62,525 nucleotides of DNA from a virus. The notes under the pieces were generated by a model. That model was not told the origin of the DNA. It did no database searches and was given only the letters and a program-made list of their open reading frames with translations. Position 1 is the first letter of the stretch, and each line of letters begins with the position of its first letter. Below, piece after piece: positions 9,293 to 13,520 of the stretch. The stretch covers positions 1 to 62,525 of the IMG/VR virus record IMGVR_UViG_3300020172_002336. The stretch is one strand, 5' to 3'. The position numbers were made by a program, and so were the translations under genes.

Positions 9293-9535
9293 ATGTCCGG
9301 ACCCGGGCCAGATAAGCGACCCTTCAACTTCTACATCAGCCGTCAGCATCTGGCGATCGTCATCGCCGAGGCGAAGAAACAGAAGACCACGAAGACGGCG
9401 ATCCTCACCGAGCTTCTGGAGGTGCTTAAGGCGCGTCGTGAGCGGCGAGGCGACCCGATCCCGCGACCGGCCCCAAAATACAACGCGCCGTGGTTCGCTG
9501 AGAAGAAGGTCAAGCAGCCGAAGGCTAAGAGCTAG
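9293..9535 (+). CDS. Putative ribbon-helix-helix-type small protein (80 aa)
   Basis: Preceded by CGGAGCGAGT. Residues 11-45 (FNFYISRQHLAIVIAEAKKQ then TTKTAILTELLEVL) fit a short beta strand followed by two helices, the layout of ribbon-helix-helix DNA-binding proteins. The tail is very basic (about 12 Lys/Arg in the last 30). A regulator of the polymerase operon is possible; no conserved motif proves it. Confidence 0.55.
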   Translation: MSGPGPDKRPFNFYISRQHLAIVIAEAKKQKTTKTAILTELLEVLKARRERRGDPIPRPAPKYNAPWFAEKKVKQPKAKS

Positions 9536-9570
9536 CTCAAGCAGGGGTCACCCTGTCGGGAAGGTACGCT

Positions 9571-12500
9571 ATGGCGAGACGATTGATTGGACTCGACTTC
9601 GAGACCCACTACGACAGCAAGTTCTACACGCTGCGCAAGATGGACATTCCGTCATACATCTGCGACCCGCGTTTCGAAGCTACGCTCGTTGCCGTCAAGG
9701 AGGGCCACAATCCGGCGTTCATTGTCGACGGACCGGACATCCCCCGTTACCTGCAGGGGTTAGGCGATCCGAAGGACATTACCCTCTACGGGCACAATCT
9801 GATGTTCGACGCTTGCATCGCGTCGTGGATCTACGGCTGGCGTGCTGGGCTTAACATCTGCACGCTGGCGCTGGCCCGCCAAACGATCCAAGCCTACTGC
9901 AGGTCGTTGTCGTTGAAGTCCGTACTTGAGTATCTTCGCCTGCCAGCCAAGGGCGGGTTCCTGTCCATGGTGGATGGGATGCGCCGCGACGACATCATCG
10001 CTGCCGGGTTCTGGCAACAGTACTGTGAGTACGCGGTGGGCGACATCGACGGCGCGTACGGCATCTACCAGCAGCTAGCACCTCTGGTGCCGCCCGAGGA
10101 GCACGTCATCGCTGACATGGTGCTGCGCATGGCGACCGAACCGTCGTTCGATCTGGACCAGCCTCTGCTGCAGGCACATCTGGACGACGTCATCGAGAAG
10201 AAAGAGGAGATGCTGGCGTTCGCCATGATCGGCGGCTCGCTCCGCGGCAAGGAAGACCTCATGTCGAACGACAAGTTCGCTTTGGTCCTCCAGTCGCTGG
10301 GTGTCGACCCTCCCACCAAGATGTCGCCTGTCACCGGCAGGCAGGCGTGGGCGTTCGCCAAGTCCGACGAGGGTATGAAGGAGCTACAGGAGCATCCGGA
10401 CCCCGTTGTGCAGGCAGTTGTCGCGGCTCGGCTGGGGCACAAGACCACGCTGGAAGAAACCCGCACGGCTCGGTTTCTGAATTGCAGTACCCTAACGTTC
10501 CCGGCCTATGGCGTGGGTAAGTTCCCCGTACCCTTGAAGGTAAGCGGGGCGCATACTCATCGGTTGTGTCTGGTGGGTGAAACAATTATTTGCACTTTGC
10601 GGGATAACCGTGTAGTGTACGATCGTCTTGACTGCCTACGCGCTACTGATCTGGTGTGGGATGGCGAGGCGTTCGTGGCCCACGGGGGACTAGCCTATGC
10701 CGGACGAAAGCGAGTTATCACTCACGACGGTGTCACAGGGACGCCCGACCACCGGGTCTTTACCGGGAAAGGGCAACTCGCGCTGGCACTTGCAAAGGCG
10801 CAAGGCGAGGACATTACTCGTGGAGGAGTTCCTGATCCGGCACGGGTCGAAACGACTGTGCACAGGGGAGATCACGTATCATTCCAGAGTGGAATTCCAC
10901 TGCAGCAAGTGCGGGGCCGTTTGTCGGGCCATGTGGAAGGATCTAACGAACCGAGACCGGGTGTTGTGCAAGTCGTGCGCGATTACCGCGCGCATGGCGG
11001 GCGTGAAGCCCTCCACCAAGATGTTAGCCGCTTCGGCCAGACAGAACGTAGACGAAGCTGCCAAGGCGAGAGCGCGGCGGGTAGTGTTACCCTTGCAGGC
11101 AAGCCAGCCGCTGACACGGGAAACGACACGTTCGCAGGCGCGTCGTTTGTCGGTGAGTTGGAGCCCTTCGGATTGGAAGACCGCCTTGACGACGGCTACT
11201 CGTGTGTTCCAGCGATGCACCAACCCCCGCATATCGAGCTACCCGTACTACGGCGGCAGGGGGATCGAAGTCTGGTTTGCCTCGCCAGCGTTGATGGCGG
11301 ACTGGTTGCTGAAAAACTTAGGACCACGACCGCTGGGCCAGTCGCTCGATCGGATCATGTCCAACGGACATTACGAGCCGGGGAACTTACGTTGGGCGAC
11401 GAAGGAAGTGCAGATGAAAAACCGCAATTCATGGAAACATGGGACATAATCGACTGCGGACCTCGCAACCGCTTCATGGCTAATGGCCGCCTTGTTCATA
11501 ATAGCGGTGACTGGAAATATAACGCGCAGAACATGCGCCGCGGCGGCAAACTTCGTAAGTCTCTCAAGGCACCACCCGGCCACACGGTCGTGGTCGGCGA
11601 CGAAAAACAAATCGAAGCGCGCATGGCCGCCGAGTTCAGCGGGCAGGCCGACCTCGTCGAGCAGTTCCGACTGGGCGTGGACACCTACGCCGCGATGGCG
11701 ACCAAGATCTTCGGGTTCGTTGTCGATCGTAAGGTTCACGTGCCGCAGGGGTTCGTCGGTAAGACATGTCTCGGCGCTGACACTCTGGTGTTGACAGATA
11801 GTGGATGGAAGCCTATCCCATACATCTTGGCTTCCGACAAAGTATGGGACGGTATGGCGTGGGTGACGCATCAGGGATTGATCTACCAAGGGGTGAAGCC
11901 GGTACTGACGAAGTACGGCGTGACGGCAACTTCGGACCACGAGATCAGTTTGGGAAGTTCGTGGCTGGAGTGGAGCGCGGTATGCGCGGACCGCCGCCTT
12001 TTCCAGTCGGCAGTCGCGTCGGTTCGTTTACCGTGCTCGGCTACGTCAACCACAAACAAGGCTGGCACCCAATCTGCCAATGCGAGTGTGGGCGAGCGGG
12101 CCGCGTCGACCGGCACAACCTCAAAAGCGGCAAGTCAACTCGGTGCCGTAAATGTTTGGGCGCGAGGCACTCTAAGAACTTTGCACTGTACCGCGACATC
12201 CTGCCTGACGATGCTCACAGACGCCGTCTCGCCAACCGCATCAGGGCCTGCATTGACAGGTGCCACAACCCAAAGAACCGGGTTTACCGCGGCTACGGCG
12301 GGCGAGGCATACACGTCCACGAAGCATGGCGTACTAACATCGGCACGTTCTTGGCCTACGTGCAGTCGTGCGCGGGCTGGGATGACCCGGCTCTCCACAT
12401 GGATCGAACAGATAACGAGAAAGGTTACGAACCGGGCAACATTAGGTTCGTTACCATCACAGGAAACAACCAAAACCGAAGGGAGGTTTGGAAGCTGCAG

Positions 12501-13242
12501 CTTCGCATCGACGAACTTGAAGCCCGTCTACGACATTGCAAATGCGGGGCCGAGACATCGGTTCACGATCCTGACTGATGAAGGGCCGCTGGTTGTCAGC
12601 AACTGCGTGCTCTCGGGCATGTACGGTGTTGGGCCGCCGAAGTTTCGTAGCTCGGTTATTCATCTGTCCAAAGAACAGACCGGCACGAGGATCGACGTCG
12701 ACGTTGATCTGGGGCCGACCGTTACCTCGGAGACCATCATTGAAGCCTACCGTCGTGAGACGTGGGCGATCACTGAGATGCGGAAGCGGCTGAACAACTG
12801 CATCCCGCTGATGGCCCAGCCCGATTGTAACTTCTTCGTCGGGGCAGTGCAGTTCCTCTACCAGAAGATCAAGCTACCAAACGGCCATTACCTCTACTAC
12901 AATAAGCTACGTTTCGACGACACGTCAGGCAGTTGGATCTACGAGTACGCCGGACGCTGGAAACGCATCTACGGCGGTGCTCTTTTGGAGAACATCATTC
13001 AGGCGCTCGCGCGTATCGTGACCATGCACGCGGCGCTGCGCCTGCGCCCCGATCTGAGTAAGTACAACTGGAAGCTGGCACTGCAGGCGCACGATGAACT
13101 CGTCTTGATAGTTCCGAACGACCACGTGGACTGCGCCAAACAACGCCTCAAGGAAGAACTTACCCGGCAGGTAACATGGATGCCCAACCTGCCGGTCGAT
13201 GCTGATATTGGATCAGGCCCCACATACGGAGATGCGAAATGA
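9571..13242 (+). CDS. Family A DNA polymerase with 3'-5' exonuclease, interrupted by two inteins (1223 aa precursor)
   Basis: The precursor contains a DnaQ-type exonuclease domain (DFETH at residues 9-13, GHNLMFDACI near 77, YAVGDIDGAY near 155) and a polymerase domain: SGAHTHRL/SGDWK region, motif A VVVGDEKQIEAR at about 673-684, motif B in the GKT/CVLSGMYGVG region, and motif C AHDELV at 1173-1178. Intein 1 is residues 333-644 and intein 2 residues 733-1011; removal leaves 632 aa, a usual length for phage Pol A with exonuclease. The second intein splits the O-helix (motif B), so activity should require splicing. Start follows GGAAGG. The stop overlaps the next ATG. Confidence 0.92.
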   Translation: MARRLIGLDFETHYDSKFYTLRKMDIPSYICDPRFEATLVAVKEGHNPAFIVDGPDIPRYLQGLGDPKDITLYGHNLMFDACIASWIYGWRAGLNICTLALARQTIQAYCRSLSLKSVLEYLRLPAKGGFLSMVDGMRRDDIIAAGFWQQYCEYAVGDIDGAYGIYQQLAPLVPPEEHVIADMVLRMATEPSFDLDQPLLQAHLDDVIEKKEEMLAFAMIGGSLRGKEDLMSNDKFALVLQSLGVDPPTKMSPVTGRQAWAFAKSDEGMKELQEHPDPVVQAVVAARLGHKTTLEETRTARFLNCSTLTFPAYGVGKFPVPLKVSGAHTHRLCLVGETIICTLRDNRVVYDRLDCLRATDLVWDGEAFVAHGGLAYAGRKRVITHDGVTGTPDHRVFTGKGQLALALAKAQGEDITRGGVPDPARVETTVHRGDHVSFQSGIPLQQVRGRLSGHVEGSNEPRPGVVQVVRDYRAHGGREALHQDVSRFGQTERRRSCQGESAAGSVTLAGKPAADTGNDTFAGASFVGELEPFGLEDRLDDGYSCVPAMHQPPHIELPVLRRQGDRSLVCLASVDGGLVAEKLRTTTAGPVARSDHVQRTLRAGELTLGDEGSADEKPQFMETWDIIDCGPRNRFMANGRLVHNSGDWKYNAQNMRRGGKLRKSLKAPPGHTVVVGDEKQIEARMAAEFSGQADLVEQFRLGVDTYAAMATKIFGFVVDRKVHVPQGFVGKTCLGADTLVLTDSGWKPIPYILASDKVWDGMAWVTHQGLIYQGVKPVLTKYGVTATSDHEISLGSSWLEWSAVCADRRLFQSAVASVRLPCSATSTTNKAGTQSANASVGERAASTGTTSKAASQLGAVNVWARGTLRTLHCTATSCLTMLTDAVSPTASGPALTGATTQRTGFTAATAGEAYTSTKHGVLTSARSWPTCSRARAGMTRLSTWIEQITRKVTNRATLGSLPSQETTKTEGRFGSCSFASTNLKPVYDIANAGPRHRFTILTDEGPLVVSNCVLSGMYGVGPPKFRSSVIHLSKEQTGTRIDVDVDLGPTVTSETIIEAYRRETWAITEMRKRLNNCIPLMAQPDCNFFVGAVQFLYQKIKLPNGHYLYYNKLRFDDTSGSWIYEYAGRWKRIYGGALLENIIQALARIVTMHAALRLRPDLSKYNWKLALQAHDELVLIVPNDHVDCAKQRLKEELTRQVTWMPNLPVDADIGSGPTYGDAK
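10567..11502 (+). mobile_element. Intein 1 of the DNA polymerase (312 aa)
   Basis: It starts at Cys333 (CLVGETIICTLRD, block A), has block B as GVTGTPDHRVFT, and ends with block F WDIIDCGPRNRFMANG and block G RLVHN, followed by Ser as the first C-extein residue. The nucleophiles Cys1, His-Asn at the C-end and Ser+1 are all present, so splicing looks competent. Between blocks B and F about 665 nt remain open in the intein frame but give a featureless sequence without any in-frame endonuclease motif; an HNH endonuclease is encoded there in another frame. Confidence 0.88.
10697..11449 (+). CDS. HNH homing endonuclease nested out of frame inside intein 1 (up to 250 aa)
   Basis: This frame is +1 relative to the polymerase. 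It encodes a zinc ribbon (HCSKCG and LCKSC) and the HNH homing core of the type RCTNP, YYGGRGIEV, LDRIMSNGHYEPGNLRWATK, ending KNRN. The ATG at 10697 has GGGGGA eight bases upstream but would overlap block B; a GTG at 10820 after GCGAGG gives a shorter protein that starts beyond block B. It ends 53 nt before the intein end, inside block F. The likely role is cutting intein-less polymerase genes, doing in trans-frame what an in-frame intein endonuclease does. Confidence 0.85.
   Translation: MPDESELSLTTVSQGRPTTGSLPGKGNSRWHLQRRKARTLLVEEFLIRHGSKRLCTGEITYHSRVEFHCSKCGAVCRAMWKDLTNRDRVLCKSCAITARMAGVKPSTKMLAASARQNVDEAAKARARRVVLPLQASQPLTRETTRSQARRLSVSWSPSDWKTALTTATRVFQRCTNPRISSYPYYGGRGIEVWFASPALMADWLLKNLGPRPLGQSLDRIMSNGHYEPGNLRWATKEVQMKNRNSWKHGT
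11767..12603 (+). mobile_element. Intein 2 of the DNA polymerase (279 aa)
   Basis: It starts at Cys733 (CLGADTLVLTDSGWKPI, block A), has block B as GVTATSDHEIS, block F as VYDIANAGPRHRFTI and ends PLVVSN with Cys as +1 residue. The residue before the terminal Asn is Ser, not the usual His, so splicing may rely on other residues. The insertion point is within motif B of the polymerase. About 550 nt between blocks B and F are open in the intein frame but carry no endonuclease motif (Thr/Ala/Ser-rich); an HNH gene is read there in a different frame. Confidence 0.87.
11982..12578 (+). CDS. HNH homing endonuclease nested out of frame inside intein 2 (198 aa)
   Basis: This frame is +2 relative to the polymerase. 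The ATG at 11982 has GGAG six bases upstream and yields the typical N-terminus of phage HNH enzymes (PVGSRVGSFTVLGYV), followed by CQCECG and CRKC, then RCHNP, YGGRGIHV, LHMDRTDNEKGYEPGNIRFV and NQNRR. The open frame extends back to 11805 but without a good site. It starts just after block B and its last 20 or so codons are also read as intein block F, so that stretch is truly dual-coding. It ends 25 nt before the intein end. Confidence 0.88.
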   Translation: MRGPPPFPVGSRVGSFTVLGYVNHKQGWHPICQCECGRAGRVDRHNLKSGKSTRCRKCLGARHSKNFALYRDILPDDAHRRRLANRIRACIDRCHNPKNRVYRGYGGRGIHVHEAWRTNIGTFLAYVQSCAGWDDPALHMDRTDNEKGYEPGNIRFVTITGNNQNRREVWKLQLRIDELEARLRHCKCGAETSVHDPD

Positions 13243-13520
13243 CGAGCCAATCCGACACGACCGCGACGCCGAGCACTCTCAAGGTCCGCACGAAAGTGTC
13301 CGCCGCTGAGAAGCAAGCCAACTACGACCGCGCCTACGAGACGCAGGTCAAGCAGTTCTGCTTCCAGCAGGCAGCGGAGCACAGCCTGACAGACGGTGCG
13401 GCCAATCCGAAGGCCCCTCCGATGGAGGCGATCCTCCAGAACGCCGACCTCATGTTCAAGTGGTTCAAGAACGGCACCGTGCCCGCGGCCAGAGCCGCCA
13501 GCATCCACGCGCTCAACTAA
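13239..13520 (+). CDS. Hypothetical protein (93 aa)
   Basis: The ATG overlaps the polymerase stop as ATGA, so expression is coupled to the polymerase. Charged, helical, Ala-rich (NYDRAYETQVKQFCFQQAAE). Possibly a small accessory of replication; no known motif. Confidence 0.65.
   Translation: MTSQSDTTATPSTLKVRTKVSAAEKQANYDRAYETQVKQFCFQQAAEHSLTDGAANPKAPPMEAILQNADLMFKWFKNGTVPAARAASIHALN

Follow-up and report, generated by a model that had tools for sequence, protein, structure and literature searches.

The source record is a virus contig of 62,525 bases from IMG/VR, and the window analysed here is the whole of it. It carries a precursor ORF for a family A DNA polymerase that runs for 1223 codons without a stop and contains two inteins (Table 1). 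The ORF was matched to the PHROG 17 DNA polymerase (8e-47) and to Pfam DNA_pol_A (2e-15), and the polymerase is 43% identical to a Rhizobium phage RHph polymerase. Deletion of both inteins leaves a polymerase of 632 aa that is gap-free at both junctions against the 636-residue polymerase of Rhizobium phage RHph_TM3_14A, which is without either intein. Each intein is overlapped by an HNH endonuclease gene in a shifted frame, HNH1 in intein 1 and HNH2 in intein 2.

Table 1. Features of the polymerase locus in the window.
Feature	Position	Strand	Remarks
Family A DNA polymerase precursor ORF	9571..13242	+	two inteins inside
Polymerase exteins	9571-10566, 11503-11766, 12604-13239	+	
Intein 1, polymerase frame	10567..11502	+	Cys1 CLVGET to MANGRLVHN, +1 Ser
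GGGGGA, possible ribosome-binding site of HNH1	10684..10689	+	7 nt 5′ of ATG 10697; weak, inferred from sequence
HNH1, HNH endonuclease gene, +1 frame	10697..11449	+	250 aa from ATG 10697; alternative start GTG 10820
Intein 1 block B (GVTGTPDHRVFT region)	10729..10764	+	T59, H62 invariant, alignment A10
HNH1 zinc ribbon (C69, C72, C91, C94), +1 frame	10901..10978	+	four cysteines invariant in A11
HNH1 core RC..YYGGRGIEV..LDRI..NGHYEPGNLRWAT..Q..N, +1 frame	11213..11431	+	invariant columns in A3, A5, A11
Intein 1 blocks F, G (WDIIDCGPRNRF ... GRLVHN)	11440..11502	+	intein C-terminal profile match
Intein 2, polymerase frame	11767..12603	+	CLGADT ... GPLVVSN, +1 Cys; intein profiles, collinearity after removal
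GGGACGG, Shine-Dalgarno-like sequence of HNH2	11846..11852	+	written by intein codons Trp-Asp-Gly
HNH2, HNH endonuclease gene, -1 frame	11859..12578	+	239 aa from GTG 11859; start from stop profile, 74 loci

The first-pass annotation had placed intein 1 at 10567-11502 and had read splicing blocks A, B, F and G from the frame of the polymerase. Both statements are right: the intein runs from Cys at 10567 to Asn at 11502, with Ser next, and the blocks are complete. The nucleophile at residue 1 is Cys in both inteins and is invariant in alignment A10, and the T..H of block B is TPDH in intein 1 and TSDH in intein 2. At the C-terminal junction of intein 1 (LVHN/S, the slash marking the junction) Asn, the penultimate His and the following Ser are all present, whilst that of intein 2 (VVSN/C) has Asn and Cys with Ser replacing the usual penultimate His. 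The N-terminal half (IntN) of intein 1 shares 47% identity with its counterpart in L104, a split intein with the same insertion site. An AlphaFold model of intein 1 built with 32 homologues has pLDDT values of 92-98 at residues 1-90 and 82-97 at residues 281-312; residues 100-280 are predicted to be disordered (pLDDT 32-57). Fold comparison with crystal structures matched the model to the Mtu RecA intein (Z 16.9, 123 residues, rmsd 2.5) and to the gp41-1 split intein (Z 16.1), and 74 chains reached Z >= 8, the rows shown being nearly all inteins or Hint relatives. The top Foldseek match was gp41-1, with an E-value of only 5e-3. The polymerase-frame stretch between blocks B and F gave no family match, which, together with its low pLDDT, upholds the earlier statement that it encodes nothing recognisable in that frame. 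In the polymerase frame, intein 1 is thus predicted to form a Hint domain whose two parts are joined by a disordered linker.

Neither intein and neither HNH was recognised by Pfam or NCBIfam at useful E-values, and we therefore relied on PHROGs, home-made profiles and fold comparison. In the +1 frame of intein 1, where an HNH endonuclease with a zinc ribbon had been proposed, HNH1 matched the PHROG HNH families phrog_374 (1.8e-19) and phrog_3377 (1.8e-18), and the cysteines and core residues proved invariant. HNH1 was also matched by a profile of the HNHs from split relatives of intein 1. The core of the HNH1 model has a pLDDT of ~96 and the zinc ribbon is also confident. Structure comparison gave the PacI HNH enzyme as its weak top row (Z 5.5, 82 residues, rmsd 3.8), and Foldseek with the same model returned no useful match. 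The start of HNH1 is uncertain, and may be ATG 10697, with GGGGGA upstream, or GTG 10820. The C terminus lacks an extension found in the split-intein relatives and is ~60 residues shorter, so that specificity or activity may be reduced or lost.

Intein 2 is inserted at polymerase motif B (GFVGKT/C) and has the same two-frame design with the opposite shifted frame (-1), which had not been reported as such. HNH2 matched phrog_374 (2.2e-33); a PDB sequence search with its profile as query gave no match. The Shine-Dalgarno-like GGGACGG has a duplex energy of about -7.7 kcal/mol and its position is conserved among relatives. Two other starts were considered. ATG 11982, with a good GGAG upstream, was rejected because relatives avoid HNH-frame stops from +92 on (counted from the first base of the intein), and a conserved candidate at +194 was rejected as a by-product of a second conserved Trp codon.

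To judge chance, codons were shuffled among synonyms in one frame and stops were counted in the other. Shuffling the HNH1 codons gave an expectation of 4.6 polymerase-frame stops with 0 seen (P 0.003), and shuffling the polymerase-frame codons over HNH1 gave 5.0 expected HNH-frame stops, again with 0 seen (P 0.0004). The third frame at HNH1 contains 13 stops versus 12.4 expected. For HNH2 there were 0 stops versus 4.1 expected (P 0.003) and 0 versus 6.1 in the reverse shuffle. The two-frame arrangement is neither chance nor sequencing error.

A protein search with HNH2 found the same gene within the annotated DNA polymerases of Guernseyvirinae phages (SETP3, fPoEco01); among the 155 Salmonella phages hit, a large share carry the gene inside the polymerase. 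Pseudomonas phage MR14, EBPR siphovirus 2 and Vibrio phage 97.13 were found by the same search. Five relatives were read in detail, and all five have intein halves in the polymerase frame and the HNH in the -1 frame. Scans of IMG/VR with single window proteins gave three distant HNHs (P0003) or nothing (P0001 and P0002), and alignments were needed. A six-row alignment (A1) recovered 298 relatives of HNH2, and in all of the best 80 of these 298 the gene is nested, at a constant offset, in one stop-free ORF with both intein halves. Only the HNH frame was used to retrieve these relatives, so that the search did not favour loci with an open intein frame. Elsewhere, Pseudomonas phage Rollin (L007, 5136-5777) has a free-standing HNH2 relative directly 3′ of an intein-less polymerase.

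For a set of 76 unique loci, made up of L093, L096 and 74 loci of the -1 type, synonymous shuffling led us to expect ~332 intein-frame stops, and 0 were found, with 1265 versus 1225 expected in the third frame. Clustering of the -1 type at 50% aa identity leaves 8 clusters, with 0 stops versus 25 expected. In the HNH frame of the 74 loci, stops between -600 and +89 are as frequent as chance predicts or more so; from +92 to +240 there are 0 versus ~110 expected. Every examined -1 locus has ATG, GTG or TTG near +92 (+92 to +104), a minority of them slightly downstream. This codon is written by the base before a conserved Trp codon, and a Shine-Dalgarno-like stretch 5′ of it by Trp-Asp-Gly codons, with duplex energies mostly of -6 to -8 kcal/mol. 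Moreover, the Glu codon before the conserved Trp is GAA, which makes ATG, rather than GAG in 29/43 cases versus 17.6 expected from each locus's own polymerase codons. Stop avoidance that begins at a conserved start codon, together with the GAA preference, is strong comparative evidence that the HNH of the -1 type is translated from its own start codon.

Substitution rates by codon position were compared in 49 pairs of related loci. In block B the fastest base is position 3 of the intein codon (0.227 vs 0.12 and 0.10), and in the HNH core it is position 3 of the HNH codon, which is position 2 of the intein codon (0.381 vs 0.147 and 0.092). Beyond the HNH core the fastest-changing position is mixed. 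The ends are thus controlled by the intein frame and the middle by the HNH frame, and in the middle the intein frame retains only the absence of stops.

The +1 set, comprising loci from HNH1 profiles, two phage records and the window, holds 68 unique contiguous inteins, 9 split inteins, one frameshifted intein (L266) and many free-standing HNHs. The 68 contiguous loci have 0 intein-frame stops versus 767 expected, whereas in the 9 split relatives the constraint is gone (146 versus 125 expected). Clustering at 50% aa identity gives the same result, with 0 versus 217 in 21 +1 clusters and 88 versus 75 in 5 split clusters. As an open intein frame is part of what defines 'contiguous', it is the bimodality that is informative: loci either have 0 stops, or are split and have roughly as many as chance predicts. 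Inteins of the +1 type sit in polymerase motif B, at other polymerase sites and in helicases, among other hosts. Among these relatives we found AAGGAGGT and then ATG; in Javan104, Gardnerella AB1, L162 and L104 the GGAGG-type ribosome sites are written by Lys-Glu-Val and the ATG by Tyr-Asp.

Several further inserts were seen alongside. In APSE-1 (L320, 2931-3353) and Caulobacter phage RW (L322, 2685-3341) a third polymerase site (YGGK..C / N/CEN) holds an intein whose HNH is in the +1 frame, and L260, L279, L274, L285, L290 and L309 are +1 two-frame inteins at host sites other than the examined polymerase and helicase sites. Moraxella phage Mcat20 (L097, 2231-3163) has a short ThyX-like ORF with a mini-intein like intein 1 (CFVAET ... 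MANGKLVHN/S).

At the window's own intein 1 site, no contiguous orthologue was found among the relatives, only split ones (L103, L104/L105, L109/L110, L117, L185-L187, L311 and L313). In these the polymerase is on two ORFs with the intein halves, and between them lies an HNH gene of the same family as HNH1, its frame shifted by +1 from that of the N half, just as in the window. The split junction of L104 is the same as in the window; in the others it is two codons further. No such architecture, with halves on separate ORFs, occurs in the window, where a single ORF holds both. Because an overlapped linker need only lack stops, one nonsense or frameshift mutation together with an internal start would turn a two-frame intein into a split one, and we therefore favour a direction of change from two-frame to split.

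Taken together, the claim that one DNA segment has two jobs is supported well beyond the window: both frames are constrained, and the intein frame is kept stop-free in 80/80 relatives of HNH2 and, in the +1 type, in 68 contiguous loci set against 9 split and 1 frameshifted. The search of phage genomes that the first-pass annotation had proposed thus yields ~150 virus records sharing the double-coding design, and the two-frame feature is general. The first-pass annotation had also held that homologues with a broken HNH frame and an intact intein frame would refute double coding. Such homologues do occur. Streptococcus phage Javan422 (L094, 2438-2941) has lost ~420 bases of its +1-frame HNH in frame, giving a 168-residue intein that still shows a recognisable HNH start. 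At the same site as in Javan422, Ruminococcus phage NatCom_29429 carries an intein with no HNH. In L071 a nonsense codon interrupts the HNH, whilst the intein frame is unbroken. However, broken HNHs are few among ~150 intact ones and do not refute the design, since a homing cycle predicts loss of the dispensable endonuclease with the splicing frame kept.

The same broken genes, and the short C terminus of HNH1, would also fit a dead passenger, namely an HNH gene that landed in the linker of a mini-intein and persists untranslated as a residual open frame. This we consider improbable, though it is the best placed of the alternatives. The HNH frame is stop-free in ~150 loci with HNH third positions the most variable, stop avoidance sets in sharply at the start codon, and the catalytic and zinc residues are invariant; within the window the passenger reading remains for HNH1 only. 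Somewhat less probable still is programmed frameshifting, by which ribosomes would make an IntN-HNH fusion with no independent HNH start. Phages do use frameshifting, and the HNH frame could be reached by a +1 or -1 shift, but all examined -1 loci place ATG, GTG or TTG at +92 to +104 after a Shine-Dalgarno-like stretch, exactly where stop avoidance starts, and +1 relatives have an ATG after AAGGAGGT.

We regard as very unlikely an RNA-level group I or II intron with an HNH ORF, in which the open polymerase frame would be incidental. Phage group I introns typically carry HNH endonucleases, and the Sodalis phage SO-1 relative is annotated as such an intron; against this, the Hint fold and splicing residues are present, and the polymerase frame is free of stops although an intron removed as RNA would not have to be open. 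An Rfam intron search of 9500-13300 with E up to 1 gave no match. Lastly, sequencing or assembly indels masking an ordinary in-frame endonuclease, which the first-pass annotation had named as a possible refutation and for which the single frameshift in L266 is a parallel, are excluded because the same offsets recur in ~150 records, isolate genomes SETP3, MR14, Javan104 and APSE-1 included, and no in-frame HNH was seen in any contiguous intein of this set.

Very probably, therefore, each insert combines a cis-splicing intein with a homing endonuclease gene that overlaps the intein out of frame and is translated separately by internal initiation. Ribosomes in the polymerase frame would make the whole precursor, in which the HNH region would act as an unstructured, stop-free linker between the Hint halves, and self-excision of the intein would give active polymerase. 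Other ribosomes would initiate within the intein coding sequence, near +92 for HNH2 at a codon created by a Trp codon, and for HNH1 and the rest of the +1 type roughly between +130 and +190, often after AAGGAGGT from Lys-Glu-Val codons. The product would be a free HNH endonuclease with a zinc ribbon that cuts or nicks intein-less polymerase alleles, repair then copying the whole insert. The analysis establishes the anatomy of the inserts, their frames, the constraint on both frames, the predicted Hint fold and, by comparison among loci, the start codon of HNH2; from these we infer protein splicing, HNH translation, DNA cleavage and homing alike.

A broader proposal, to which we give even chances, is that two-frame inteins make up a class that is widespread in phages but has largely gone unrecognised. 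They would have arisen at least twice (+1 and -1), with conserved codons of the splicing domain also serving as the ribosome-binding site and start codon of the endonuclease, and would form an evolutionary bridge from mobile inteins to natural split inteins with free-standing endonucleases. Intein searches and classification assume an in-frame endonuclease; if the two-frame reading is right, many so-called mini-inteins are complete mobile elements. The system moreover offers a clean example from nature of constraint on two proteins encoded in overlapping frames, for which the split relatives serve as a built-in control. Since the same polymerase site exists both split and contiguous, the origin of natural split inteins becomes directly testable. 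Two-frame inteins may also serve as tools, with ~180 residues of arbitrary linker tolerated.

Like canonical large inteins, which carry a LAGLIDADG or HNH endonuclease in frame, the window inserts join intein and homing endonuclease in one mobile element; theirs, however, lies within the spliced-out polypeptide, whereas in the window it has an overlapping gene of its own. In group I introns with HNH ORFs, too, the endonuclease gene is independent of the splicing device, but in the window splicing would be by protein and the endonuclease DNA is also read through in the host frame. The 'fractured genes' of Dassa et al. (2009) reportedly comprise split inteins with a free-standing endonuclease gene between the intein halves. 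The intein 1 model resembles gp41-1 and split relatives at its site carry the same HNH family, but the window halves are still one ORF with the HNH overlapping in another frame. Close parallels exist in annotated genomes. In APSE-1 (NC_000935.1) P46 is nested in the polymerase P45 at an offset of +1, with the intein halves confirmed here, and in Sodalis phage SO-1 gp38 and gp39 are nested ORFs at an offset of -1; these are annotated as an overlapping 'HNH endonuclease' and a 'type I self-splicing intron', not as a two-frame intein. SO-1 gp39 (L319, 2578-3336) is the -1-frame HNH of a polymerase intein, and its intron annotation looks wrong. The expert annotation of Salmonella phage Ent3 describes the polymerase intein as 'encoding splicing domains' only.

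Our literature searches found no paper that describes an out-of-frame endonuclease in a Hint intein; a directly relevant preprint on a 'non-canonical architecture' (Gosselin et al. 2025, 10.1101/2025.01.02.630785) lay outside their coverage, and priority for two-frame inteins may lie elsewhere. The view of the first-pass annotation that known inteins usually carry the endonuclease in frame, unless they are mini-inteins, is the assumption in the literature covered. The Felix O1 paper, for example, ruled out inteins on the ground that its HNH genes lay in a different frame (PMC3185647). Insertions that have an HNH out of frame but no splicing domain are, however, published. These are two insertions in actinophage DNA methylases, the ShiLan domain and Pacc40, which are stop-free with an out-of-frame HNH, and in which neither an intein splicing domain nor a Shine-Dalgarno sequence was found (Arsenault et al. 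2025, PMC11855218). Their sporadic distribution was read as homing and the insert is thought to remain in the methylase (PMC11855218). The ShiLan domain is the nearest published precedent: the window inserts are also stop-free with an out-of-frame HNH, but differ in having a full Hint domain and visible initiation signals.
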